A stretch of DNA of 64,000 bases from a virus: positions 1 through 64,000 of the IMG/VR virus record IMGVR_UViG_3300037200_000067, one strand, 5' to 3'. Both the position numbers and the translations under genes were made by a program. Numbering within the stretch: the first letter of the stretch is position 1; each line of letters opens with the position of its first letter. Below are positions 411 to 31,832 of this stretch, one piece after another. Under the pieces are notes generated by a model, which worked only from the letters and a program-made list of their open reading frames with translations, did not search any database and was not told where the DNA came from.

Positions 411-3400
411 GTGAGCAACATCTATCGCCTTAACGACAGCGGCGAACCGGGCGGACTCCGTGCCCGCGTAAAAATGGTCACGGACAACCTGATCAATTTC
501 ATCAGCGGCCTCGGCACCGGCAAAGACCCAACGACAGCGTCCCGCTTTCATTTCCACGAAATCAACCGCAACGCCCTCGAAGCCGCCTATCGGTCAGACT
601 GGATAGCACGCAGGATCATCGACGCTCCCGCCGAAGATCAGACCCGCGAATGGCGCTCGTGGCAGGCGACAAACCCCCAGATCGAGGCCATCGAAGACCT
701 CGAAAAGCATCTCGATATCCAGCAGAAAACCAAGCTGGCGATCATCCGCGCGCGTCTGTATGGCGGCGCGGCGCTGGTGCTCGGCGTCGATCAAGGCGAA
801 ACGTGGGAGCCGATCGACTATGACAAGGTCGGCAAGGGCGACCTGAAATTCGTGGTGGTGATGAACCGCTACGAACTTGCTGCGGGGCCGCGCATCTATA
901 ACGTGATGAGTCCCTGGTACACGCGTCCGGAATTCTACACGGTCCAGACCCCGCTTTTTGGATTCGGCGGCGAGAACGGCACGCAATATCCCGGCATCAA
1001 CCGAACAGCTGAGGCGTTGATCGTCCCGCCTCGCGTGCAGGGCCAAGCGCCCTATCCGAGCGACAAATTCTTTCAGGTCAGCCCAAACCAGGGAATGGTG
1101 CTGATCCATCCGTCGCGGGTGATCGAACTGGCGGGAAACGAATTGCCCGACTGGCGCCTAGCGCCGATGGGCGGCGGCTGGGGCGATTCGGTCCTCCAGA
1201 CCGTTGACGAGGTGCTGAAAGACTTCGGCCTCACGGTCGGCGGCATCGCCAACATGATCAACGACGCCAAGATGGACGTCGTGAAGGTGCCGGACTTCTC
1301 AAAAAATATATCGACACAGGAATACGCGACGAAACTCGCGACCCGGTTTCAGACCGCGAACCTCCAGAAATCGGTGCTGAACGCCCTCGTTCTCGACAAG
1401 GAGGAAGAGTGGTCGCGCATCCAGACGTCGTTTGCGGCGCTGCCCGATATCATGCGGGAATACATGACGCTCGCGGCGGGCGCCGGCGGGATTCCCGTAA
1501 GCCGGCTGATGGGCCAAAGCCCCGGCCGTGGACTGAATACGACCTCTGGCGGCGACACGGATATCAAGAATTACTACGACTCGATGGCCTCGGCTCAGAA
1601 AACCACGCTCACGCCAGCGATGGAGCCGCTCGACCAGTGCCTGATCCGATCGGCAACCGGGAAATACGATAAAAATATCTGGTACGAATGGAATCCGCTT
1701 TACACGCAAGACCCGAAAGACGTGGCGGCGATCCAACTGACGAAAGCCCAAACCACCTCGCAATACGTCACGATGGGCCTGATCAACGAGGACGCGCTGC
1801 GGCAGGGCGTCGTCAATCAGTTGCTTGAGGATGGCCCTTACGCCGGTCTTGAGGACGCGATCGAGGAATATGGCTCCAAGCCCGACGTCCCCGAGTCGCG
1901 CGTCTGGTCGCCCGGCTATGATCCTGTCACCGGCAAGCCATTGCAGGGCGGCGCGGGCGGCGGCGGTGGGCCGGGCGAGCCAGGATCGCCAGCGGGCGGC
2001 TCTGGCGGCGGTGGAGGATCGAAGGGCGGCGGTGGCGCGGGAGGGCCGACGACGGCCACAGCGCCGGGCGGCAATCGCGGCGCGGGGGGAACGGGCGGCG
2101 AGACGTCGCAGGGAAACCAGGGCGGCAACGTCTTTCACATTCACCTCGCCGGCAAAGACGCGGCTGACTTTGTGCGCGACTTTGATCCAGACCAGCCGCG
2201 TGATCCTGCCGGCAAGTGGACGAGTGGCGGCGGCGCATCTGGGCTCCAGACCAAGAGCGCTAAAAGCGCAGCCTTCTTCGCCGCACTCGAGGAAAAATTC
2301 CGGGCCAGTGCGCAGGCGCGCCTTAACCCGCAGCCGCAGCGCGTCTCGACGTCGCAGGGTGAGGGCGCGCTGGCGATGTTTCACGGGACCGTCGATCAGG
2401 TCCGCGACAAAATTCTGAAGGAGGGTCTCATTCCGCATGCGAGCGGGGGCGGGGACGCTTACGCTGCAAAGCACGGAATGGGCGTCGCGAAGCATGCATT
2501 CGAGGGTGATCGGGCGAATTCCGTCTATATGTCGCCAGACCCCGATTACGCGCGTTCATTCGCGCAGATTGTCGCCAAGGATCATCCGGGCGCCAAGCCG
2601 ATTTTGTTCGAGGCTGACATTCCCGACAGCGCGACCAAAAATCTGAAACGCGACGAGCATGCGGACGGTGCGCCAGCCTATCGTTACATCGGCAAAATAC
2701 CCCCTGCGTGGCTGAAGGTGGTCCCGCTTGACACGCCAGGCTTCGGCAACATCACGACAGACGAGGATAGCGGCGTGAAGCTCTATATCCTCGTGTTCGC
2801 TGACGGGACGACGAGCGCGCTCGACTTCAACCCCAACCACGATCCGAAGACCGGGCAGTTCACGAGCGGTCAGACGGGCGCGGGCGGCGGGCAGAAATCG
2901 GCCAGAACGGCCCGATCTGGTGGCAAGACTTCCCGGAAATCCGGCGCAAAGTCGGCGGGCGCGGGCGCGGCGACAGAGGCCGCGCCAGAACCGACCGAAG
3001 GCGAGGAAGATTTCAATCGCCTGAAGGGCCATCTTCTCGCCGCAGCCGGCGCGATCAAAGACCCGGCCTCGACGATCAAAAACGCCGCGAACTGGACATC
3101 ATGGCATCAGCGCGCTGGATCACAGGCGGCATGGACGCGATCGGGGCTTAAAGCCGCTGCGGCGAGTGGCGCGAAAACGGTCGCCGGCGGCATCCACCAG
3201 GCCGCTGCCGACAAGCTATCCGACACGCTAAAGGGTCTCTTCGACACAATTTGCGAAGGCGTTGGCGGCATCGTCGGAACTGAGGTCGGCGGCATAACGG
3301 GCGGCATTGTCGGCGCGGTCTTCGGCGGAATCATCGGCTATGGCGTCGACAAGCTGATGGACCACCTTGGCGTCACGCCGGAAATGGGCGCGCACGTCCT

Positions 3401-3656
3401 GTCGGTCGCCGGCCACTCGGCGATCGCGTATGCGCACCTTCACGCGCCAAAGATCGCGCAGCGCCTCGCTACGAGCGCGCCAGAGGGCAATTGGAGCGCG
3501 GTGATGCATCCGGGCGCCTATGGCGACGCGGGCGACGGTGGCGACTTCCTCGCGCGCCTTGAGGCGTTCGTCCGCGAACTTGATGCAATGACGCCAGAGC
3601 AGATCACAGAAGCCGCCGCGCAGGCGCGGCAGGCACGCATGGGAGCGCAGATATGA
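411..3656 (+). CDS. Portal protein (DUF1073-like) with C-terminal ADP-ribosyltransferase-like and glycine-zipper regions
   Basis: Residues 1 to about 500 resemble DUF1073-type phage portal proteins (ALEAAYRSDWIARRIIDAPA and RLYGGAALVLG segments), which form the dodecameric ring through which DNA enters the head. At 1081 residues it is about twice the usual length. Residues 510-570 are a glycine-rich linker. Residues about 650-775 look like an ADP-ribosyltransferase fold: FHGT (H658), VYMS (Y706) and ILFEAD (E734) could form an H-Y-E triad. Two DP-x-x-G-[WF]-T-S-G motifs lie at about 597 and 811. Residues 950-983 are a hydrophobic glycine zipper. GTG start at 411. The portal call is fairly firm; the transferase activity is inferred from motifs only. 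Confidence 0.82.
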   Translation: MSNIYRLNDSGEPGGLRARVKMVTDNLINFISGLGTGKDPTTASRFHFHEINRNALEAAYRSDWIARRIIDAPAEDQTREWRSWQATNPQIEAIEDLEKHLDIQQKTKLAIIRARLYGGAALVLGVDQGETWEPIDYDKVGKGDLKFVVVMNRYELAAGPRIYNVMSPWYTRPEFYTVQTPLFGFGGENGTQYPGINRTAEALIVPPRVQGQAPYPSDKFFQVSPNQGMVLIHPSRVIELAGNELPDWRLAPMGGGWGDSVLQTVDEVLKDFGLTVGGIANMINDAKMDVVKVPDFSKNISTQEYATKLATRFQTANLQKSVLNALVLDKEEEWSRIQTSFAALPDIMREYMTLAAGAGGIPVSRLMGQSPGRGLNTTSGGDTDIKNYYDSMASAQKTTLTPAMEPLDQCLIRSATGKYDKNIWYEWNPLYTQDPKDVAAIQLTKAQTTSQYVTMGLINEDALRQGVVNQLLEDGPYAGLEDAIEEYGSKPDVPESRVWSPGYDPVTGKPLQGGAGGGGGPGEPGSPAGGSGGGGGSKGGGGAGGPTTATAPGGNRGAGGTGGETSQGNQGGNVFHIHLAGKDAADFVRDFDPDQPRDPAGKWTSGGGASGLQTKSAKSAAFFAALEEKFRASAQARLNPQPQRVSTSQGEGALAMFHGTVDQVRDKILKEGLIPHASGGGDAYAAKHGMGVAKHAFEGDRANSVYMSPDPDYARSFAQIVAKDHPGAKPILFEADIPDSATKNLKRDEHADGAPAYRYIGKIPPAWLKVVPLDTPGFGNITTDEDSGVKLYILVFADGTTSALDFNPNHDPKTGQFTSGQTGAGGGQKSARTARSGGKTSRKSGAKSAGAGAATEAAPEPTEGEEDFNRLKGHLLAAAGAIKDPASTIKNAANWTSWHQRAGSQAAWTRSGLKAAAASGAKTVAGGIHQAAADKLSDTLKGLFDTICEGVGGIVGTEVGGITGGIVGAVFGGIIGYGVDKLMDHLGVTPEMGAHVLSVAGHSAIAYAHLHAPKIAQRLATSAPEGNWSAVMHPGAYGDAGDGGDFLARLEAFVRELDAMTPEQITEAAAQARQARMGAQI

Positions 3657-4298: not shown

Positions 4299-4552
4299 CC
4301 GAGGACGGAAGCATGAGAAATTACTTCAAGCCAAGCGCCGTCCTGGCGGTCAAGGTTGAGGCCACGCCTTTAGCAGGCGGCGCGACGATGACAAAGGAAC
4401 GCCCGCAAATGCTCTTGTCCGTCTCAATCGGCGACGTCCTACGCAGACTGGCGGATGACGTCGATAGCCGCGCCAACTGTTCGGTGCGTTGGAATACAGA
4501 CCCCGATGACGGCACGATCACGATGATGGTGGACTTCAAACCGTGGGTCTGA
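4295..4552 (+). CDS. Small hypothetical protein
   Basis: 85 residues, ATGA-coupled upstream and TGATG-coupled to the minor head protein downstream. An internal ATG at residue 7 (MRNYFKPSAV) is a possible alternative start. The C-terminal half alternates hydrophobic and polar residues as in a beta sheet (DGTITMMVDFKPW). Function unknown. Confidence 0.55.
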   Translation: MTEDGSMRNYFKPSAVLAVKVEATPLAGGATMTKERPQMLLSVSIGDVLRRLADDVDSRANCSVRWNTDPDDGTITMMVDFKPWV

Positions 4553-6141
4553 TGCTCGACCGCGCGCAAGGAGATCGCCGCAGGCGCATGTTGCGCGACG
4601 CGGCGAAGGGGGAAGGCCGTAGCGGGTTAGCGATAGGTCACGGCCACCTGCATGTCGCTGATCAAACGCCGGGGCGTGGAGGCAACGGGGCCTGCCTCCA
4701 CGACTCTGCCCCGGCCGCGAATGATCCAACAGGCACGACGCCGCTCCGACGGGCATTCCTGGAGGAAGCCCGTAAGCGATGGGCGGCGCTCGATGCGCTC
4801 ACAACTGACGCGATCATCAAGCACAACATGCTCGGAACCGTGAGTGTCGCCAGCATCGGGCAGGCGGCGGCGAGCGCGGTCGGCGGAAACCAGATCGACA
4901 ATTTCGCGCTCTGGTTTGGCGAGGCGGTGCGCCAGGTCGTCATGAACGGCGATGGGCAATGGGTTGCGCCATATATCCGGCAGGCCGCTGGCATGGCCGA
5001 GGAGCGCGCGCGCGGGCTGCTGAGGCTGGACGAAAACGTCGTCGAAGGCATGCCGACGCCTGACGGAAAACCATCCTCGCTCTACATCAGCCGTCCCGTC
5101 GTCAACGCCGCCGATATTGTCGCGTGGGCGAAAGACGCCGGCTTTCCGACCACGCTGCCCGCTGACGATATGCACGTCACGGTCGTCTTCTCGCGCGCGC
5201 AGGTCGATTGGGCGAATGTGCCAGATCACGGCTCTGACCATGTTACGATCGAAGGGTCTGTTGGTCGGTCCCTTGATCAGTTCGGCGACGCCGTCGTCCT
5301 TCGCTTCCCGTGCGAATATCTCGCGCGCCGCCACCATGAAATATCCGCCCTTGGCGCATCATGGGACCATCCGCAATACCAGCCGCACGTCACGATCACG
5401 TGGAACGTCGGCGACTTCGACTGGCGCAACGTGCCCCCATATGCCGGCCCGATTGTGCTCGGCCCGGAAATCTTCAAGCCAGTCAAGGAAGACTGGAAGG
5501 CGTCGATCGTCGAGGACTCCTCGCCCGCGATCAACACTCTGATCGCCGTCACGATCGCCGAACTGCGCGGGATATGCGACGCGACCATCCAGCAGGTGAC
5601 GCGCGCGATCGGCAACGCCGTCCTGGCGCATCAGCGCGCGCCGCAACTCGCCACGGCAGCGGCTGGCGTCATGCGCACAGTCGGTCTCGCCCGCACCAAC
5701 GCCATGATCAATTACATGGTCGTCAAAGCGTTCGCCGTGATCACGCTGGAGGTTTTCCGAACTGGCGGCGTCGAGCAAGTCGGAACGGTCGCCGAAAGCA
5801 TCCCGGCACCGCGCGCGCTCGACGCGCTGTTCGACGCCGCGCGCGTCACGCCGCAGGTGCGCCACGCGCGCACGGGCCAGTTCGTCAAGTTCAAAAAGCC
5901 GCCGTCGCGCAAGAGGCGCGCGGAGATTGAGAAGATCGAGGCTGGGCTCGCGGGGCTTGGCGAGGTCGACGTCGTTACGGCGGACGACGACCTGGTTTGT
6001 CAGCGCTGCCAGGACATCAGCGACAACGGGCCATACGATATAAATGAGGCGCTAGGACTTGTGCCCGTCCATATTTCCTGCCGATGCGTATTTTCACCGA
6101 CTCGCGATGAAGGAGGGCGATTTACCAAAAGGATAAAATGA
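4552..6141 (+). CDS. Minor head (Mu F-like) protein with an internal Acb1-like 2H phosphodiesterase domain
   Basis: The N-terminal ~140 residues and the C-terminal ~170 residues look like a phage head morphogenesis protein; the end has the usual cysteine pattern (CQRC at about 483, ISCRC near 510). Between them, residues about 165-320 carry two H-x-T motifs, H208-V-T210 and H279-V-T281, each in a hydrophobic strand and each followed by a DW motif. This is the signature of 2H phosphoesterases and matches the layout of phage anti-CBASS Acb1, which degrades cyclic oligonucleotide alarms. I chose ATG 4552 because it overlaps the previous stop (TGATG); GTG 4543 is in frame too. The domain call is strong, its biological role is inferred. 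Confidence 0.8.
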   Translation: MLDRAQGDRRRRMLRDAAKGEGRSGLAIGHGHLHVADQTPGRGGNGACLHDSAPAANDPTGTTPLRRAFLEEARKRWAALDALTTDAIIKHNMLGTVSVASIGQAAASAVGGNQIDNFALWFGEAVRQVVMNGDGQWVAPYIRQAAGMAEERARGLLRLDENVVEGMPTPDGKPSSLYISRPVVNAADIVAWAKDAGFPTTLPADDMHVTVVFSRAQVDWANVPDHGSDHVTIEGSVGRSLDQFGDAVVLRFPCEYLARRHHEISALGASWDHPQYQPHVTITWNVGDFDWRNVPPYAGPIVLGPEIFKPVKEDWKASIVEDSSPAINTLIAVTIAELRGICDATIQQVTRAIGNAVLAHQRAPQLATAAAGVMRTVGLARTNAMINYMVVKAFAVITLEVFRTGGVEQVGTVAESIPAPRALDALFDAARVTPQVRHARTGQFVKFKKPPSRKRRAEIEKIEAGLAGLGEVDVVTADDDLVCQRCQDISDNGPYDINEALGLVPVHISCRCVFSPTRDEGGRFTKRIK

Positions 6142-6592: not shown

Positions 6593-8413
6593 ATGGGATT
6601 GCGATACCCGAAAGCGCCCCGCCAGATTGCGGACGGGATCACCCGCGTCAACCTCCTTGATCCCTTCATACTCGACGGCCTCGTTAAGACCAGCGACGGC
6701 ACAATGCGCCGCACGGCGGACGGCTATCTCACCGCCTTCGCCAATGTCGCGCGAACGGGCATCCAGCAGTACAAGGGCAAAGAGCTTGGCCGGCCCGATC
6801 TGGACGTCGTGAACGTCTATCGGCCCGCTGACGAGGTATTCTCGCGCGACGCCATGCATTCGATGGCGCACAAGCCCGTCACGCTCTACCACCCGACCGA
6901 AGCCGTCACCTCGAAGAACTGGAAAGACCACGCGGGCGGATCGACCGGCGATGAGGTTGTCCGCGACGGCGATCATGTCCGCGTCCCGCTGGTCATGATG
7001 GACCAAGGCCTGATCGACGCCGTCGAAAAGGGCGGCATCAAAGAACTGTCGATGGGCTACTCGACGGACCTGAAATGGGGCCGTGGGACGACGCCAGAGG
7101 GCCTGTCCTACGACGCCACGCAGACCAATATCCGCGCCAATCACCTGGCGGTGGTGCCCGTCGCGCGCGGCGGCAACACGCTGCGGCTGGACGCGACGAT
7201 GGCCCAGCCGAATGTCTGCCCGAACTGCGGCGCGGACATTCCGCCGAACGCAGACGAATGCCCGGCCTGCGAATTCGATCTCACCAACGACATGGCGCTT
7301 GACCGCGTGCCCATGAAATATTGCACCGACTGCGGCACGTCGATGATGGCCGATGCAAAGTTCTGTCCCGGCTGCTCGAAGGCGACCAAAGACGGCATGC
7401 CGCCCAAGACCTGCGCTCAATGTGGAGCACAGATGAAATTCTATGCGCTGGCGTGCCCGGTCTGCCAGACGCCCGCGCCGATGCGCGACGCAGCGAACCT
7501 GACCGCGCGCATGGTCGACGCGAATTTTTACTGGATCGTCGACAAGGTGTTCACCGAACAGAAGCGCGCGCAGATGGCGAAGTCCGGCGCCGCGATGCCC
7601 GGAGGGCGCTATCCGATCGCGACCGCTGCGGACGTCGAGAATGCGGTCAGAGACTACAACCGCACCGGCCAGCCGGCCGACGTCAAAGCCCACATCATCG
7701 CCCGCGCGAAAGCGATCGGGGCCACCAGTTCGCTGCCCGATGGATGGGCGTCGAAAACCAACGACAGCAAAGGAAATCCCATGAGCGCGACCATCACGAT
7801 TGACGGCGCCACGATCGCGGTGGCCGACGAACTCTCCGCTGCGGTCATCACCAAGAAGGTGACCGATCTCTCGCGCCAGCTTCGCGACGCCGAGAAGACG
7901 GCAGCCTCGGCCAAGGCCGACAAGGAAGAGGCCGAGGAAGAGAAGATGAAGCAGGAAGACGGCTTCAAGAAGCAGATCGCGGCCAAGGACGGCGAAATCG
8001 TCGCGCTGAAGTCGCAGTTGAAAGACGCCGTGATGAGCCCCGAGAAGCTCGACGCGCTGGTCAAGGACCGCGCCGAGGTTGTCGGCAAGTCCAAGTCGTT
8101 CCTCGGCGACGGCTTCACCTTCGACGGCAAGACTCTCGACGACATCAAGCGCGCGGTGGTCGCCAGCAAGATCGGCGATGCGGAAGCGAAGACGATGGAC
8201 GCTATTGGCGTCGCTGCGGCGTTCAAGGTGCTGACGGCCGGCACGGACACCCGCGACGGCTTTGGCCGCAGCGGCGGCGCCCGCGATATTGGCTTTGCGC
8301 TGCATCACCAGCAGTCGAACGGCCAGCGTCCCGGCGTCCGCGTTCAGGACGCTGCGCTCAGCGATTACGAAAAGAACCTCAACTCGGCATGGCAGACGAA
8401 GCGCGCCTCGTAA
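6593..8413 (+). CDS. Prohead protease (DUF2213-like) fused to zinc ribbons and scaffold
   Basis: Residues about 15-200 match DUF2213-type capsid maturation proteases (DVVNVYRPADEVF, KPVTLYHP, KELSMGYSTD, ANHLAVVPVARGG). Residues about 207-293 hold three CxxC...CxxC zinc ribbons in tandem, which are not part of the usual protease. Next comes a DVKAHIIARAKA-type helical module (about 335-385). After residue 397 the protein is a charged coiled coil typical of scaffolding. The expected job is to assemble the procapsid around the scaffold and then digest it. A second product from an internal start is annotated separately. Confidence 0.82.
   Translation: MGLRYPKAPRQIADGITRVNLLDPFILDGLVKTSDGTMRRTADGYLTAFANVARTGIQQYKGKELGRPDLDVVNVYRPADEVFSRDAMHSMAHKPVTLYHPTEAVTSKNWKDHAGGSTGDEVVRDGDHVRVPLVMMDQGLIDAVEKGGIKELSMGYSTDLKWGRGTTPEGLSYDATQTNIRANHLAVVPVARGGNTLRLDATMAQPNVCPNCGADIPPNADECPACEFDLTNDMALDRVPMKYCTDCGTSMMADAKFCPGCSKATKDGMPPKTCAQCGAQMKFYALACPVCQTPAPMRDAANLTARMVDANFYWIVDKVFTEQKRAQMAKSGAAMPGGRYPIATAADVENAVRDYNRTGQPADVKAHIIARAKAIGATSSLPDGWASKTNDSKGNPMSATITIDGATIAVADELSAAVITKKVTDLSRQLRDAEKTAASAKADKEEAEEEKMKQEDGFKKQIAAKDGEIVALKSQLKDAVMSPEKLDALVKDRAEVVGKSKSFLGDGFTFDGKTLDDIKRAVVASKIGDAEAKTMDAIGVAAAFKVLTAGTDTRDGFGRSGGARDIGFALHHQQSNGQRPGVRVQDAALSDYEKNLNSAWQTKRAS
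7768..7783 (+). promoter_or_regulatory. Internal ribosome binding site inside the protease gene
   Basis: CAAAGGA (7768-7774) stands six bases before an ATG at 7781 that is in frame with the protease (codon 397). This spacing is ideal, and the ATG falls exactly where the protease module ends and the coiled-coil scaffold begins. Confidence 0.65.
7781..8413 (+). CDS. Predicted nested scaffolding protein (same frame as protease C-terminus)
   Basis: Translation from the internal ATG would give a 210-residue protein starting MSATITIDG. It contains a long charged coiled coil (many K, E and A residues, about 25-100) and a DALVKDRAEVVGKSK helix. The arrangement is like lambda C/Nu3, where the scaffold is made both as the protease tail and as a free protein in excess. 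The inference rests on the ribosome binding site and the domain boundary; no other evidence is available here. Confidence 0.6.
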   Translation: MSATITIDGATIAVADELSAAVITKKVTDLSRQLRDAEKTAASAKADKEEAEEEKMKQEDGFKKQIAAKDGEIVALKSQLKDAVMSPEKLDALVKDRAEVVGKSKSFLGDGFTFDGKTLDDIKRAVVASKIGDAEAKTMDAIGVAAAFKVLTAGTDTRDGFGRSGGARDIGFALHHQQSNGQRPGVRVQDAALSDYEKNLNSAWQTKRAS

Positions 8414-9036: not shown

Positions 9037-9981
9037 ATGCGTCACTTCATGTTGGACTCGCAGCAGGCCCTGGGCTTTCTGATCGAGCAGACGACTTCGA
9101 TCGAAAGCGAAGTCTATCGCATCCAGTACCCGGATATCCTCTACCCGCAGCTTGTGCCGGTCGATACGAGCGCATCGGAGTGGGCGAAGTCAGTCACGTA
9201 CTTCTCGCTCGATAAGGTTGGCGAGGCGCAGTGGTTCGACGGCATGGCGACCAACATGCCGCTAGCCGACATCAACCGCGCCAAGTACGAGCAGGGCATC
9301 GAAATGGCCGGCATCGGCTATCGCTACACGCTCGAGGAACTCGGGCAGGCGATGATGATCCCCGGCCTGAACCTGTCGAGCGAAAGGGCGGAAGCCGCGC
9401 GTCGGTCCTACGAGGAATTCATGGACCGGCTGGCGCGTATCGGCGATGCGCGCAAGCAGGTGACGGGCCTGCTCAACAACGCGACGGTCACGCAGGTCGA
9501 TGCGATTGCGGACGGCACCGGCTCCAGTGCGTTGTGGTCGAATAAAACTGCGGATCAGATGATCCGCGACGTCCAGAACGCTCTCACGGCGGTTTACGAG
9601 GGTTCAAACACGGTCGAAATGGCCGACACGGTTCTGCTGCCGATCAGCAATATGGAACTGCTCGCCAACACCCGCGTCCCGAACACCTTCGGCAACGCGC
9701 TCGACTATCTGATGAAGTACAACCTGTATACGCATACGACCGGCGCGCCGCTGACGATTCGCGGCATTCTGAACCTGAACAATCTTGGCGTGGGCGGAAC
9801 GGGTCGCATGGTCGCCTATCGCCGCGACCCGCGTGTCGTGAAGCTGCATGTCCCGATGGTCCACCGCTTCCTGCCCGTCTGGCAGACCGGCCCGATCACC
9901 TATGACATTCCCGGAATTTTCCGCGTCGGTTCGGTCGAAATCCGGCGCCCCGGCGCATTCACTTACGTAGATGGGATTTGA
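9037..9981 (+). CDS. Major capsid protein (DUF2184-like, HK97 fold expected)
   Basis: 314 residues. The sequence fits the DUF2184 family of major capsid proteins: IESEVYRIQYPDILYPQLVPVDTSA near the start, EAQWFDGMATNMPLADI, GYRYTLEELGQAM, and a C-terminus with PMVHRFLPVWQTGP and EIRRPGAFTYVDG. Mature heads of this type consist of hundreds of copies. A ribosome binding site (AAAAGGACA) precedes the ATG. The position after protease, scaffold and cement genes fits completely. Confidence 0.88.
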   Translation: MRHFMLDSQQALGFLIEQTTSIESEVYRIQYPDILYPQLVPVDTSASEWAKSVTYFSLDKVGEAQWFDGMATNMPLADINRAKYEQGIEMAGIGYRYTLEELGQAMMIPGLNLSSERAEAARRSYEEFMDRLARIGDARKQVTGLLNNATVTQVDAIADGTGSSALWSNKTADQMIRDVQNALTAVYEGSNTVEMADTVLLPISNMELLANTRVPNTFGNALDYLMKYNLYTHTTGAPLTIRGILNLNNLGVGGTGRMVAYRRDPRVVKLHVPMVHRFLPVWQTGPITYDIPGIFRVGSVEIRRPGAFTYVDGI

Positions 9982-11312: not shown

Positions 11313-13049
11313 ATGACGACCGTCGTTCTCACGCCGCAAGACTTTCTCGACCCTGTCGCGCTCGCGAATAAACTCGCGGCTGCGATCAATGAAGGCGACG
11401 GCGCAGGGCTGGAAGGCTTCACCGCAACCTATGTCGCGGAGCCGTATGATGGCGCGACGAATCCAGCCGGCGTCCTTCAAGCGTATGACGGCACGGACGC
11501 GACAGACCCGGTTGACGTCGTGCTCATGCCGGGCGGTCAGCGCGAAGGTGAGCCTGACGGCAACATCACCTACGGCGCGATCCAGGCGACGCTTTCCGAT
11601 GGCACGCCAATTGGCGGCAATCAGCGTGGGACTGGCGCGGTCGATTTTCAGATGTTCCGCACTGATCCGTCGCAAGTCGCGTCGGGCATTTCGGCTTTCG
11701 CAGCGGGATCGGCGAACGTCGCGTCGGGCTGGATTTCGACGGCTTTTGGCGACGCCAATGAGATCACGGGGTTTATCTCTTACGGCGAGGGTTCGGGCAA
11801 CGTCGAGGCAGGGTCGATCAATCACGTCGAAGGGGCCGACAATACCGCTGACGGAACCTACGTCCACGTCGAAGGTGAGGGCAACAACGTCGGTGGCGTG
11901 TCTATGCACGTCGAGGGCTCAGGCAACACGGCAGAAGGCGAGCTTCAGTACGTCCACGTCGAAGGCTACCAGAACACCGTCAACAACAGCTATTCCCATG
12001 CTGAGGGCAGTGGCAACACGATCAACGCTGGGGGCGCGTATTCGCACGTCGAGGGGAATGGCAACTCGACGTCGGGGAACGCAGCGCACGCTGAAGGCTC
12101 TGGAACGCAAGCCAACGGCGCGCAATCGCACGCCGAAGGTTCTGGTACGCTGGCGGAGAGTATTGGCGATCACGCGGAGGGGGTGAACACCGCCGCAAAT
12201 AGCGCGGGAGGCGGCGGTGCGCACGCGGAGGGACTCAGCACGGCGGCAAGTGGACCACAATCCCATGCCGAAGGGAATACGACGCAAGCGCTGAGTAATG
12301 GTGATCACGCCGAGGGTTACAACACGACCGCCAATAGCGGAGGCGACGGAAATTATGGTGCGCATGCCGAAGGCGATTCGACACAAGCGCTAAACGACGG
12401 GGCGCATTCTGAGGGCGGCTACACGGTTGCGTCTGGCTACAATTCCCACGCCGAAGGACAAAGTACGGTTGCCGCAGGAGACTCATCGCGCGCCGAAGGC
12501 ATAAATACGGCGGCATATGGCTACGCGTCAAGGGTTGAGGGCAACTTCGCGACAGATTATGGGGTTTCAGGCGTAAGCGTTCGGGGCGCTTATGGCAGCA
12601 GCATCTTAGGTCACGCGCAGTCTACTATCGCCCTGTTCGTCACCGAGACCGAAGACGCCACTCCGACCGTGATGACGATCGACAACCAAGACCCTTCGAC
12701 GATCAATCAGGTCATTCTCGGCCAAGACAACGCGCTGTACTTCGCTGACGTGTACCTGACGGGCAAAGTCACAGGCGCAAGCGATTGGGTATCAATTTGG
12801 GCGCAGGTCACGGCGCAACGCGGAACAGGGGCCGCGTCCGTCACAATTCCCACCTCAGTCGGAGGCACAAATCCGGCGCTCGCGTTGACCAGCTACGGAA
12901 GCGTCACTGGCTTGACGTGGGGTTCCGGAAGCCCTCTCGCGCTCGTTGCTGACACCGACAACGGCGCGCTTCAGATTCAAATCACAGGCGCAGCCGATAC
13001 AAACATCCAGTGGTATGCCGAAGTCCGCACCCGCGAACAAGTATTCTGA
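11313..13049 (+). CDS. Head-fibre-like protein with YadA-type HAEG repeats
   Basis: 578 residues. Residues about 171-409 contain 17 copies of a [HR]-[AVS]-E-G motif, each followed by a short turn with N, T or S. Such repeats form a left-handed beta roll in trimeric adhesin heads and in some phage appendage proteins. The N-terminal ~110 residues are probably the virion anchor and the C-terminal ~160 residues a beta-rich tip (ASDWVSIWAQVTAQRGTG). Since the gene lies between the capsid and connector genes, far from the tail fibres, it is more likely a capsid appendage than a tail fibre. Strong ribosome binding site (AAGGAGATAG). Confidence 0.68.
   Translation: MTTVVLTPQDFLDPVALANKLAAAINEGDGAGLEGFTATYVAEPYDGATNPAGVLQAYDGTDATDPVDVVLMPGGQREGEPDGNITYGAIQATLSDGTPIGGNQRGTGAVDFQMFRTDPSQVASGISAFAAGSANVASGWISTAFGDANEITGFISYGEGSGNVEAGSINHVEGADNTADGTYVHVEGEGNNVGGVSMHVEGSGNTAEGELQYVHVEGYQNTVNNSYSHAEGSGNTINAGGAYSHVEGNGNSTSGNAAHAEGSGTQANGAQSHAEGSGTLAESIGDHAEGVNTAANSAGGGGAHAEGLSTAASGPQSHAEGNTTQALSNGDHAEGYNTTANSGGDGNYGAHAEGDSTQALNDGAHSEGGYTVASGYNSHAEGQSTVAAGDSSRAEGINTAAYGYASRVEGNFATDYGVSGVSVRGAYGSSILGHAQSTIALFVTETEDATPTVMTIDNQDPSTINQVILGQDNALYFADVYLTGKVTGASDWVSIWAQVTAQRGTGAASVTIPTSVGGTNPALALTSYGSVTGLTWGSGSPLALVADTDNGALQIQITGAADTNIQWYAEVRTREQVF
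11823..12542 (+). repeat. Protein-level HAEG repeat array, 17 units
   Basis: The units are 11-17 residues long, with the fixed H-A/V-E-G core and variable linkers such as SGN, NGN, NTT, YNT and QST. The variable length suggests expansion and loss of units by recombination. Confidence 0.8.
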
Positions 13050-27945: not shown

Positions 27946-28719
27946 ATGCCTGGGACTCCGAACGTCGACAAGCCGGGCGGACCCTATCGGCTCGATCCGT
28001 TCCAGCGGGTGGTAAATTACCAATATGGATGGCCGCAGTACATAGCTCCCGGCTGGTTTCTGTACTTCCTGTCGGTAACGTACGACTCGGCGACAGAGGG
28101 CGCGGCGGCGAGTGCGGAGGCCTACGTCAAAGCGAACCTCACGCTGATGCCAAGTTCGATCGCCGCATGGGCGACGCTGATCCTGGCGTGGCCCGGTCCT
28201 CCCACGCCGTTCCCTGTCCCTCCACTACCTGGGCCTGGGCCGGCAGTCCCGACGGCCGATCTGACGTTTGCGGACATCTATGGTGAGCCAAACACGGACC
28301 TCTTCCCGTACCTGACGCCGCAAGTGAACATACCAACGAACACGTTCACAAGCCTCGTGTCGTCAACCACGGAACAGACGGGATTTTCCACGTCCGGAGC
28401 GATGCTCAACACCGGCATTCACGGCGTCGGATTTATCGCGAGAACGTTCATCGGCTGCGCGACCTATCTGAGCAGCCCAGATCAAGTCATCACGGGAGCC
28501 GGCGCAGGGGGACTTGGGCTGTTTGACCCGGCTGATTTTGGCGCTGGAGGCGAGAGCTTTTCCGTCGATCAGTGGAATAATCAGTACACGAACGGCTTCG
28601 CCCATCGGTGGGGCTGGGCGGGAGGAGAACCGACGTTCACAGGCGAGTTAGCGACGGTGATTGCCACGCCTCCTGGCGTTGAAATGAATGCGACATGGTA
28701 TATTAGGGAGGGGTATTAG
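27946..28719 (+). CDS. Fibre-region hypothetical protein
   Basis: 257 residues. Contains a proline-rich hinge (about 82-104) between an N-terminal aromatic part (VNYQYGWPQYIAPGWFLYFL) and a beta-rich C-terminal part (VDQWNNQYTNGFAHRWGW). The hinge and aromatic surface suit a receptor-binding or fibre-tip protein. The end overlaps the start of the glycosyltransferase gene. Confidence 0.55.
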   Translation: MPGTPNVDKPGGPYRLDPFQRVVNYQYGWPQYIAPGWFLYFLSVTYDSATEGAAASAEAYVKANLTLMPSSIAAWATLILAWPGPPTPFPVPPLPGPGPAVPTADLTFADIYGEPNTDLFPYLTPQVNIPTNTFTSLVSSTTEQTGFSTSGAMLNTGIHGVGFIARTFIGCATYLSSPDQVITGAGAGGLGLFDPADFGAGGESFSVDQWNNQYTNGFAHRWGWAGGEPTFTGELATVIATPPGVEMNATWYIREGY

Positions 28720-31700
28720 TGGTCTATTGCACGCTGCACAATCCGACGAAAACGCCGCGCGTCATCCATGACGGCATCCCAGGATCGCAGAAGAAAATTC
28801 CGATCGGGCCAAACGAAACGACAGAGCCTGTCGAAATCGCCTTGCATATCGTCGAGACGCTGAGGGCGCGCCGCAATACGCTGATCGTCAACCAGCTTCG
28901 TCGACCCGACGCGCCCGCGCCCGTCGAGATTGGCGAATTGATCGCGCCAGAACCCGCCCCGGCGCCCGGCCGAAAGCCGCCGATCGTCATCCAGGGCATG
29001 TGGGGCATCGGCGATAATCTCCATCAGCGCGCCTTCCTGCGCGAACTGATGAAGACCAAGGATGTGTGGCTGGAGACCTGCTTTTTCCACCTCTACCACG
29101 ACATGATTCCGCAAGGTCTTCATATCATCCCAAGGCGCACGCGGCTGCGGGCGCAGGCCAAGATCATTGCCCAAGAAGAATCGCTGCATGGTCCTCTTGT
29201 TCCGCTCCCCGCCAACGCGCCGGCGCCGATAAAAATCTGGTACTACAAGACCGAGATTGATCGACAGGGATCAATCCTCGCGGAAATGATGCACCGCGTC
29301 GGCGTGAAGGTTCCGAGACCCGATTTCAGCATGCCGGTCCCTGACGAATGGAGGGCCACGGCAAGAGCGCTGATCAGCGGATGGAAGACCAGCGGCAAGC
29401 CGATCCTGCTCTACCGGCCGATCGTTCTCAGAAAAGAATGGGACGGAGCGGCCAGAAATCCCGATCCTCTGGTCTATCAGGCTCTGTTCCGATCCATCCG
29501 AGACAGGTTTTTCGTCGTGTCGCTCGCTGATCTTGAACCGGGGGTGGAATGGATCGTCGGCCCTGATCAGGCGGCAGACGTGAAATTGCATCACGCCGAG
29601 CTGGATTTTCGGGGCATGGCTGGATTGTTTGCCGAGGTCGACATGGCGTTTTGCTGCGCGGGCATGGGGCCGGTGCTCGCTCAGGCCGTCGGAACTCCGG
29701 TGGTGATCGTCTATGGCGGCAGGGAGAGTTTCAAGACGACGGAATCAGCCGGCGCACACCTCGCGCCGACGCTGGGGCTTGATCCAAACCATCCTTGCGA
29801 CTGCCACAGCCATCGGCATGCCTGCGATAAACGGATGACCCTGGCGCCCGCCCTAGGGCGTCTGAGGGCCTTCGTTGACGAACACACGACCAGGCGCCGG
29901 ACGTTGATCTTCGCCACGACCTATGTCGACTGTCGAGAGCGGGCGATGCTGACGGACCAATGGATTACTTTGGTCAAGGAAAAGAACCCCTGGTGCGATA
30001 TTCTGATCGTCGACGCGAAAAGCCCATGGTCGCCGCTGATTGATGAAAAGTCTCACGGCAGATTCATCAAGTACACGCCCGGCCGGCAAAGCCGCCAGAT
30101 GCTGCATGTGTTTGACGAGAACGTCGGCCACCTTTCACGAGGAGGCAAAGACGGCTGGGGGCGCGCCTTCACCTTCGGGCTTCAGGCGGCGATCGACTGC
30201 GGCTATGACTTCGTGGCCCATATCGAGGGCGACAGTCTTTTCAGGCTTCCTGTCGGGCCGATCATTGATCAGATGGCGCATGAGAACGTGAAGGCCATGT
30301 CGATCCCGGTTGTCGGGATGACGGTGACGCTGAGGGATTGGGTTGAGACCGGCCTGATGTTTTTCGAGACCGCCTATCTGCGCGAAAGCAAATTCGTCGA
30401 GAAATACGACTGGAAGGCTCGCACGCCGGCGCCGACGCCCGAAAAGGTGGTGAGGGCTCTGCTGGGCGACAGTCTCGTCATGGCGTCGTGGAAGGGCATG
30501 AGAGGCGACAAGGGCCAGATCACGCACAAAAACGTCGACAAACTCGACCTCGACTGGATCACGCATTGCCACACCGACGTCTGGGCTTATGATCGCTTTC
30601 TCGCCCTCGCGTTGGGCCGAAAGGAGGTGGTGCCAAGTGTACGAGGAAATGCCGTGGAGCCCTTACCGGCCCCCGATGTCGCCTCTCAGAGGCCCATTGT
30701 AGCGACGCCAGCCGAGAAGCTGAATTTCGGGTGCGGGACGAACAAGCTTCCCGGCTGGCGCAACATGGACATCGAGGTCGACATCGAAAAGCCGCTGCCC
30801 TTCGCGGATCATTCAGCTTCAATCGTTTTCTCAGAGCATTGCGTCGAGCACGTCGACTATTATGCGGCTATCCGGTTTTTTCAGGAAGCGTGGCGCGTGC
30901 TAAAGCCTGGCGGCGTGATCCGGATCGCGGTTCCATCCATCGAAAAGATCATGGAGAGCGATGACGCCGAATATTGGAAATTCTCGACCAAATTTCAGAC
31001 CAAGGGTCCGACCAAACGCGGCGCGATGCACGGCATCCTGTTCTCCCACGGCCACAAGACCGGCTGGACATCGAACCTTCTCAGAGCCACGCTCTATTAC
31101 GCGGGCTTTGAAGACCTGACGATCCATATGCCGGGCGAGTCCTTTAGAGACGAAACCAAAAACCTCGAAGGGCATGACAAGGTCATAGGAAAACGGTTCA
31201 ATGATCTCGAAACGATCGCCGTCGAAGGCGTGAAGCCCGATCCAGAAGCGATGGCGAGGATGGCTGCGACGGTTCAACCGATTGCTCTTCCATCCCCTGA
31301 TCCGATCAAGCTCGCGATCGTGGTCGGCGGCGGCAATGATCCGATCGAGGAAGCGCAGCAAGCCGCCCTTTACGCTCACAAAGCGGGCCTTGAACCGACT
31401 TATTTCATCGTAAACGACATGATCGCCCACTTTCCGCATGAGGCCGTTGCGGTCACATTGCATCGTGAGAAGCTTGAGGGCTGGATGCAGACGCGCGTGC
31501 GCGAGGGACTGCCGCTGATCAGTCAAGTCTGGGGCCACCGCAAATATGACCGCATCACCAATGTCACCGAGGACTGGTCAGGCTCATCCGGCCTGTTTGC
31601 GGTCAAGATCGCCCGGATGCTCGGGTTCACGCGGATCATCTTGGCTGGCGTCCCGATGACGGCGGACGGCAATCATTTTGTGCGCAAAGTGAGGTGGAAC

Positions 31701-31832
31701 GCCGTGCAGGGCTTCCGCCGAGGCTGGGAGCGCCATAAGGACGAGATCGCGCCTTACGTGCGCTCAGTGTCGGGCTGGACCGCCGAGCAGTTCGGCAAGC
31801 CGACAGAGGACTTTCTGAGGGGCAAGCCGTGA
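28719..31832 (+). CDS. Four-domain glycosyltransferase / methyltransferase protein
   Basis: 1037 residues. Residues 1-90 are a short beta-type domain (NPTKTPRVIHDG). Residues about 95-390 look like a GT9-type glycosyltransferase, with the VDMAFCCAGMGPVLAQAVGT segment near 305. Residues about 393-640 look like a GT-A fold (LIFATTYVDCRER; HIEGDS near 500 as possible metal site). Residues about 667-850 are a class I SAM methyltransferase (LNFGCGTNKLPGW, then CVEHV). Residues about 864-1030 hold a Rossmann-like domain (VVGGGNDP, GSSGLFAVKIARMLGF). It probably builds or modifies a glycan on the virion or host surface; substrate unknown. GTG start overlapping the previous TAG. Confidence 0.7.
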   Translation: MVYCTLHNPTKTPRVIHDGIPGSQKKIPIGPNETTEPVEIALHIVETLRARRNTLIVNQLRRPDAPAPVEIGELIAPEPAPAPGRKPPIVIQGMWGIGDNLHQRAFLRELMKTKDVWLETCFFHLYHDMIPQGLHIIPRRTRLRAQAKIIAQEESLHGPLVPLPANAPAPIKIWYYKTEIDRQGSILAEMMHRVGVKVPRPDFSMPVPDEWRATARALISGWKTSGKPILLYRPIVLRKEWDGAARNPDPLVYQALFRSIRDRFFVVSLADLEPGVEWIVGPDQAADVKLHHAELDFRGMAGLFAEVDMAFCCAGMGPVLAQAVGTPVVIVYGGRESFKTTESAGAHLAPTLGLDPNHPCDCHSHRHACDKRMTLAPALGRLRAFVDEHTTRRRTLIFATTYVDCRERAMLTDQWITLVKEKNPWCDILIVDAKSPWSPLIDEKSHGRFIKYTPGRQSRQMLHVFDENVGHLSRGGKDGWGRAFTFGLQAAIDCGYDFVAHIEGDSLFRLPVGPIIDQMAHENVKAMSIPVVGMTVTLRDWVETGLMFFETAYLRESKFVEKYDWKARTPAPTPEKVVRALLGDSLVMASWKGMRGDKGQITHKNVDKLDLDWITHCHTDVWAYDRFLALALGRKEVVPSVRGNAVEPLPAPDVASQRPIVATPAEKLNFGCGTNKLPGWRNMDIEVDIEKPLPFADHSASIVFSEHCVEHVDYYAAIRFFQEAWRVLKPGGVIRIAVPSIEKIMESDDAEYWKFSTKFQTKGPTKRGAMHGILFSHGHKTGWTSNLLRATLYYAGFEDLTIHMPGESFRDETKNLEGHDKVIGKRFNDLETIAVEGVKPDPEAMARMAATVQPIALPSPDPIKLAIVVGGGNDPIEEAQQAALYAHKAGLEPTYFIVNDMIAHFPHEAVAVTLHREKLEGWMQTRVREGLPLISQVWGHRKYDRITNVTEDWSGSSGLFAVKIARMLGFTRIILAGVPMTADGNHFVRKVRWNAVQGFRRGWERHKDEIAPYVRSVSGWTAEQFGKPTEDFLRGKP

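Follow-up and report, generated by a model that had tools for sequence, protein, structure and literature searches.

An Acb1-Type 2H Phosphodiesterase Inserted in a MuF-Like Minor Head Protein: Candidate Exchangeable Cargo of a Phage Head

A minor head protein encoded in the window (the whole stretch of viral DNA that was analysed, 64,000 nucleotides, positions 1–64,000 of a 74,259-base record) carries an Acb1 domain between its two backbone halves, and the intact active site of this domain predicts a catalytically competent enzyme of the Acb1 type. According to the preferred reading, to which a probability of about 0.55 can be given, the enzyme is an exchangeable cargo placed between two long helices of the minor head protein, is borne in the virion, is brought into the cell along with the DNA, and cuts the signals of CBASS. 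It is the only Acb1 domain in the whole record.

Gene and Its Surroundings

The reading frame of the head protein is open from GTG 4543 (532 amino acids) as well as from ATG 4552 (529 amino acids) to the stop at 6141; the start is probably 4552, because this ATG overlaps the stop of the upstream gene as TGATG. Residue numbers are counted here from GTG 4543, so that the histidines H208 and H279, numbered from ATG 4552 in an earlier sequence-only reading of this DNA, are H211 and H282. The two HxT motifs which that reading had placed about 70 residues apart were found again (HVT at 211–213 and 282–284, spacing 71 residues), and a third HVT of the protein, at residues 233–235, is not conserved across the Acb1 family. 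The features are collected in Table 1.

Table 1: Features of the head protein gene and its neighbours in the window.
Feature	Position	Strand	Basis
Portal protein (Phage_portal_3), without Acb1	411..3656	+	PF06381, E 1.6e-87
MuF-like minor head protein with inserted Acb1 domain	4552..6141	+	ORF, TGATG, Pfam and PHROG, orthologues
N-terminal backbone half, residues 56–162 (DPTGT...RRAF...RW), helical	4708..5028	+	Homologues, phrog_758, model
Acb1 (2H phosphodiesterase) insert, residues 179–320	5077..5502	+	PF23474, 7t26/8hds, structure model
Y181, equivalent of T4 Acb1 Y12	5083..5085	+	Alignment with T4 57B; Y in 94/94
First HxT, H211-V-T213, equivalent of T4 H44/T46	5173..5181	+	H and T in 94/94
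Second HxT, H282-V-T284, equivalent of T4 H113/T115	5386..5394	+	H 94/94; T 87, S 7
K312 at the place of T4 E141	5476..5478	+	Column: E 58, A 18, Q 6, K 2 of 94
C-terminal backbone half, long helices, residues 329–420	5527..5802	+	Homologues, model
CxxC...HxxCxC motif of head-morphogenesis proteins, residues 486–515	5998..6087	+	Relatives, alignment A8
DUF2213 head maturation protease with zinc ribbons	6593..8413	+	PF09979, E 7.6e-49; phrog_530
Major capsid protein	9037..9981	+	PF09950, E 3.5e-78

Elsewhere in the window, the product of 11313–13049 contains many degenerate HAEG/HVEG repeats and is likely a repetitive beta-structured virion protein, and a 1037-amino-acid ORF at 28719–31832 has an embedded methyltransferase domain (PF08241).

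Acb1 Domain and Its Active Site

Acb1 (PF23474) is the sole Pfam family in the protein, and its profile match is far above chance (E 2.7e-42; 144.3 bits against a cut-off of 27). Among the sequences of solved structures, the Pam3 portal comes closest with its C-terminal part (8hds, E 5e-18), followed by the Acb1 of phage FBB1 (7t26, E 4e-16). In the alignment with T4 Acb1 (57B) the HxT/HxT tetrad is in place, H211/T213 and H282/T284 corresponding to H44/T46 and H113/T115; in addition W318 corresponds to W147, and F107 of T4 aligns with H276. Both catalytic histidines and the first threonine are kept in all 94 Acb1 domains compared. In T4 Acb1 the residue Y12 provides base stacking and E141 an adenine-specific contact (PMC9117128). 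The glutamate of the adenine contact is absent here, K312 standing at its place in an alignment region near the lid that is less certain, and this replacement counts against the preferred reading. E141 is not family-defining, because only 58 of 94 members have glutamate, and to judge from the alignment K312 may change the base preference, perhaps loosening the adenine requirement.

The full-length structure model was poor in the Acb1 part, because its alignment held just two other Acb1 rows, and the Foldseek search with it gave no match; for these two reasons the domain was modelled separately. Modelled alone (AlphaFold, 45 relatives) it reached pLDDT 89.1 and pTM 0.83 and adopted a compact 2H fold, whose best PDB matches in Foldseek were the Acb1 crystal structures 7t26 (E 2.6e-10; TM 0.64/0.72) and 7t27 (E 5.6e-10), followed by a 2025 Burkholderia phage Acb1 and then by LigT. 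Profile, active-site residues, fold, and the orthologues with an empty site described below support the original proposal of a 2H phosphodiesterase of the Acb1 family in a minor head protein.

The LigT and Usb1 2H folds also match the model, the matching PHROG family bears the label “RNA ligase,” and an RNase role was what PMC5512222 first suggested for head-fused 2H domains; all this would suit an RNase or RNA-repair 2H enzyme directed to RNA ends or 2'-5' oligonucleotides instead of CBASS signals. Such a role is improbable, since Acb1 is by far the best match in both profile and fold searches and every Acb1 assayed cleaved cyclic oligonucleotides, nine further Acb1 proteins all cleaving 3'3'-cGAMP and cAAA (PMC9117128). 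A purely structural role, with a decayed 2H fold serving as a building block of the neck or head, could be imagined from the Pam3 portal, which bears the domain in the solved structure 8hds; this is very improbable, as the catalytic histidines are invariant in 94 domains on several backbones and the head proteins of relatives manage without the domain.

Head-Protein Backbone and the Insertion Site

The Pfam profile Phage_Mu_F (PF04233) does not match the protein at E up to 1, for which reason the backbone is named MuF-like and not a member of PF04233, and the PHROG head-morphogenesis matches of the protein itself are weak (phrog_758, 0.0022; phrog_2841, 0.015). Orthologues in related phages match phrog_758 clearly, down to 2e-14; the motif C486xxC489...H510xxCxC515 is conserved in alignment A8; and the gene is placed after the portal gene and before those of the DUF2213 protease and the capsid. 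The description “Mu F-like” given from the letters of the DNA was consequently right though not obvious, its identity being settled by the orthologues, the motif, and the gene position. Identity to the homologues is 32–41% in the N half and 32–48% in the C half, and residues 471–525 are 50–67% identical to relatives. Scanning of viral contigs with the whole protein gave no match and scanning of genome contigs with the C-terminal half gave no relatives, the relatives being retrieved only via the neighbouring capsid and protease genes; the mixed alignments A4, A6, and A7, in which parts of the backbone were misplaced, were left out.

In the backbone model the N-half helices 66–93 and 117–159 have mostly pLDDT about 90, the helices 328–407 of the C half are at pLDDT about 90 as well, and the insert sits between helix 136–159 and helix 328–361, a position which in the model is accessible for a plug-in domain.

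The term “inserted,” used from the beginning for this domain, is borne out directly, as the backbone halves are contiguous in relatives. Five independent empty backbones (L097, L099, L100, L107, and L109), counted after merging duplicates, have 8–46 residues between the halves versus about 170 in the window; L098 and L105 were merged with L099 (identical match coordinates), L108 with L097 (one contig), and L106 with L107 (identical alignment). Other inserts occupy the same point in three relatives: an ART-PolyVal domain (PF18760) and then further sequence in L101, 137 residues that match ADP-ribosyltransferases only marginally in L103, and 229 residues without a recognised kind in L110. As these sequences indicate, the content of the MuF slot differs between phages, while the backbone is uninterrupted in relatives. 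The protein combines an effector domain, Acb1, with a MuF-like protein, as is characteristic of the polyvalent packaged-effector class.

Two side observations concern the MuF-like proteins of these relatives. In the protein at L107:5260-7476, and likewise in L106, the conserved CxC is split by an insert that resembles an intein (PF14890, E 2e-4, short of the curated cut-off). A GcrA-like DNA-binding domain (PF07750) stands at the N-terminus of the protein at L097:5576-7249, a hint of a host among the Alphaproteobacteria.

Portal Tail and MuF Insert as Places of Cargo

In the sampled phages that have Acb1, the domain is usually located at the C-terminus of the portal. It is found on the portal in several relatives of the window (records of L097, L106, L107, and L101; G001, G005, G010, and G011), in one place per record, and in no record of this phage group does it occur on both the portal and the MuF-like protein. 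The window's own portal belongs to the same family as these portals but gave no match to PF23474, and L101 is the mirror of the window, its portal carrying Acb1 and its MuF slot ART-PolyVal. Judging by this distribution, Acb1 occupies one of two cargo slots, the portal tail or the MuF insert. Portal-Acb1 proteins with extra domains were also found, namely, an ADP-ribosyltransferase in L062 and a PBECR3 nuclease in L074.

The window's portal has a long tail (1941–3653) with a glycine-rich linker, an FHGT...YMSPDPDYARSFA segment, and, close to its end, a hydrophobic stretch rich in glycine. The segment FHGT...YMSPDPDYARSFA resembles ADP-ribosyltransferases by eye only; no Pfam, PHROG, or PDB sequence match was obtained for this likeness, and no relatives of the long tail were found.

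Outside the window, Acb1 is also inserted in the MuF proteins of other phages (L080 and L073). The backbone of L080 gives no significant alignment with that of the window and the backbone of L073 aligns poorly, because of which the insertions may be independent. At L058:3947-5110 Acb1 is joined to the N-terminus of a prohead protease (Peptidase_S78); a neighbouring gene there encodes a MuF-like protein with an ADP-ribosyltransferase domain. Supposed protease fusions of Ruegeria phage DSS3P8 and Edwardsiella phage ZHS were rejected, being stand-alone or short Acb1 proteins merely annotated as prohead protease. In the Acb1 tree the window groups with L073 (98/86) on long branches, and the alternative clade of the window's Acb1 with the portal Acb1 of L107 was not rejected (p-AU 0.317); the tree is compatible with more than one source for the insert, the portal included.

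A short motif occurs at the boundaries of cargo. In the window's portal it is DFDPDQPRDPAGKWTSGG at residues ~590–607, before the tail domain, and in L110 it precedes the insert, while a looser form stands before the inserts of L101 and L103. The pattern P[RH][DV]xxG[RKQE][WF] was found 13 times in 1,196 sense frames and never in 968 antisense frames, and its mean count in shuffles was 0.34; some of the 13 occurrences are near-copies (L034/L035 and L098/L099/L105), and the frames were fetched via Acb1 or this phage group, which makes the sample not random. A fuller linker, [FY][DN]PD[QE]PRDxxG[RK]W[TA], is present in the window's portal and in L034, L080, L099, L101, L103, and L110, that is, in both portal and MuF-like proteins, and the motif does not flank the Acb1 domain of the window itself. 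The linker could possibly be a processing site or a packaging tag. It is tentatively proposed, with somewhat less than an even chance, that one phage group has two interchangeable cargo bays, the portal tail and the MuF insert, in which domains for anti-defence and host takeover (Acb1, ADP-ribosyltransferases, GNAT, and PBECR nucleases) are swapped at fixed points often marked by PRDxxG[RK][WF], and that Acb1 has moved between the bays.

Proposed Action and Its Timing

The enzyme would linearise the 3'-5' cyclic di- and trinucleotides that CBASS produces. Few copies of it would reach the virion as part of the head protein, other minor head proteins being present in low copy number; with few copies a catalyst would be needed, which, unlike a sponge, could work at such a number. 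Entering the cell together with the DNA, the enzyme would reduce the alarm signal from the moment infection begins. Delivery with the DNA is favoured, and early action is a reasonable expectation, because the same MuF slot holds in at least one relative, L101, another host-directed enzyme, ART-PolyVal, of a class associated with early host takeover. Against delivery speaks that a portal-fused Acb1 as in Pam3 is anchored in the portal ring, for which injection is not obvious.

The real rival to injection is late action of the same enzyme: freshly synthesised minor head protein would work on proheads or in the cytoplasm, at the sites where CBASS is triggered by head-assembly proteins, and injection would be unneeded. 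Acb1 is attached to three kinds of late head-assembly proteins, namely, the portal, MuF-like proteins (window, L080, and L073), and the prohead protease (L058). According to a review, a protein of head assembly, the prohead protease of phage Bas13, can trigger a CBASS sensor, and the same source, citing Richmond-Buccola 2024, describes an interaction of prohead protease and sensor (PMC12409349). Against late timing speaks the ART-PolyVal of the L101 slot, a class usually regarded as injected host-takeover enzymes, and late action is considered possible, though less likely than delivery with the DNA; entry-phase and late-phase action are not mutually exclusive.

If entry with the DNA is true, some phages bring a ready-made signal-destroying enzyme in the particle instead of expressing one first. 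The comparison of slots, with inserts standing where relatives have none, is a practical route to more head-borne anti-defence domains. The published prediction that head-fused 2H domains counter nucleotide signalling can now be tested directly on a defined domain, with defined mutants of its active site and with naturally empty slots as controls.

Comparison with Known Systems

Alt of phage T4 and the Dar proteins of P1 are virion proteins directed against the host at entry. The protein described here is predicted to be similarly head-borne and host-directed, while the folds and targets are unrelated.

The idea of a packaged or injected 2H enzyme is already published in general form. Iyer 2017 described 2H domains fused to MuF or portal and suggested that they either act as RNases or degrade nucleotides of defence systems (PMC5512222); a 2022 paper took fusions of this kind as a sign that the domains are packaged, injected, and directed against SMODS signalling (PMC9503650). 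The architecture class and the hypothesis are shared with the present case; in the portions of these two papers devoted to the fusions the 2H domain is not tied to Acb1, and the insertion site or slot exchange is not described. What is new in the present case is the assignment to Acb1, the evidence for the insertion site, the exchange between slots, and the boundary motif. The literature search found no paper on Acb1 in a MuF-like protein or on slot exchange, bioRxiv and most subscription journals being outside its scope and the absence therefore weak evidence, and no paper on the linker motif, the motif string itself not being searchable.

MuF polymorphic toxins (PMC5576092) also have a head-morphogenesis backbone with exchangeable enzymatic domains; their variable domain is C-terminal and toxic, whereas here it is internal and expected to counter defence. 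Portals of the Phage_portal_3 family with C-terminal Acb1 (Pam3 8hds; Rhizobium, Pseudomonas, and Synechococcus phages) belong to the same gene cluster and have domain identity up to 54%, but there Acb1 is a portal tail, while in the window it is an internal MuF-like insert and the portal is without it. Finally, the Acb1 proteins of T4 (57B) and Erwinia phage FBB1 (7t26/7t27) share with this domain the Pfam family, the 2H fold, the HxT/HxT tetrad, and the equivalents of Y12 and W147; they are stand-alone proteins, whereas the domain of the window is part of a head protein, has K312 for E141, and is predicted to be active.
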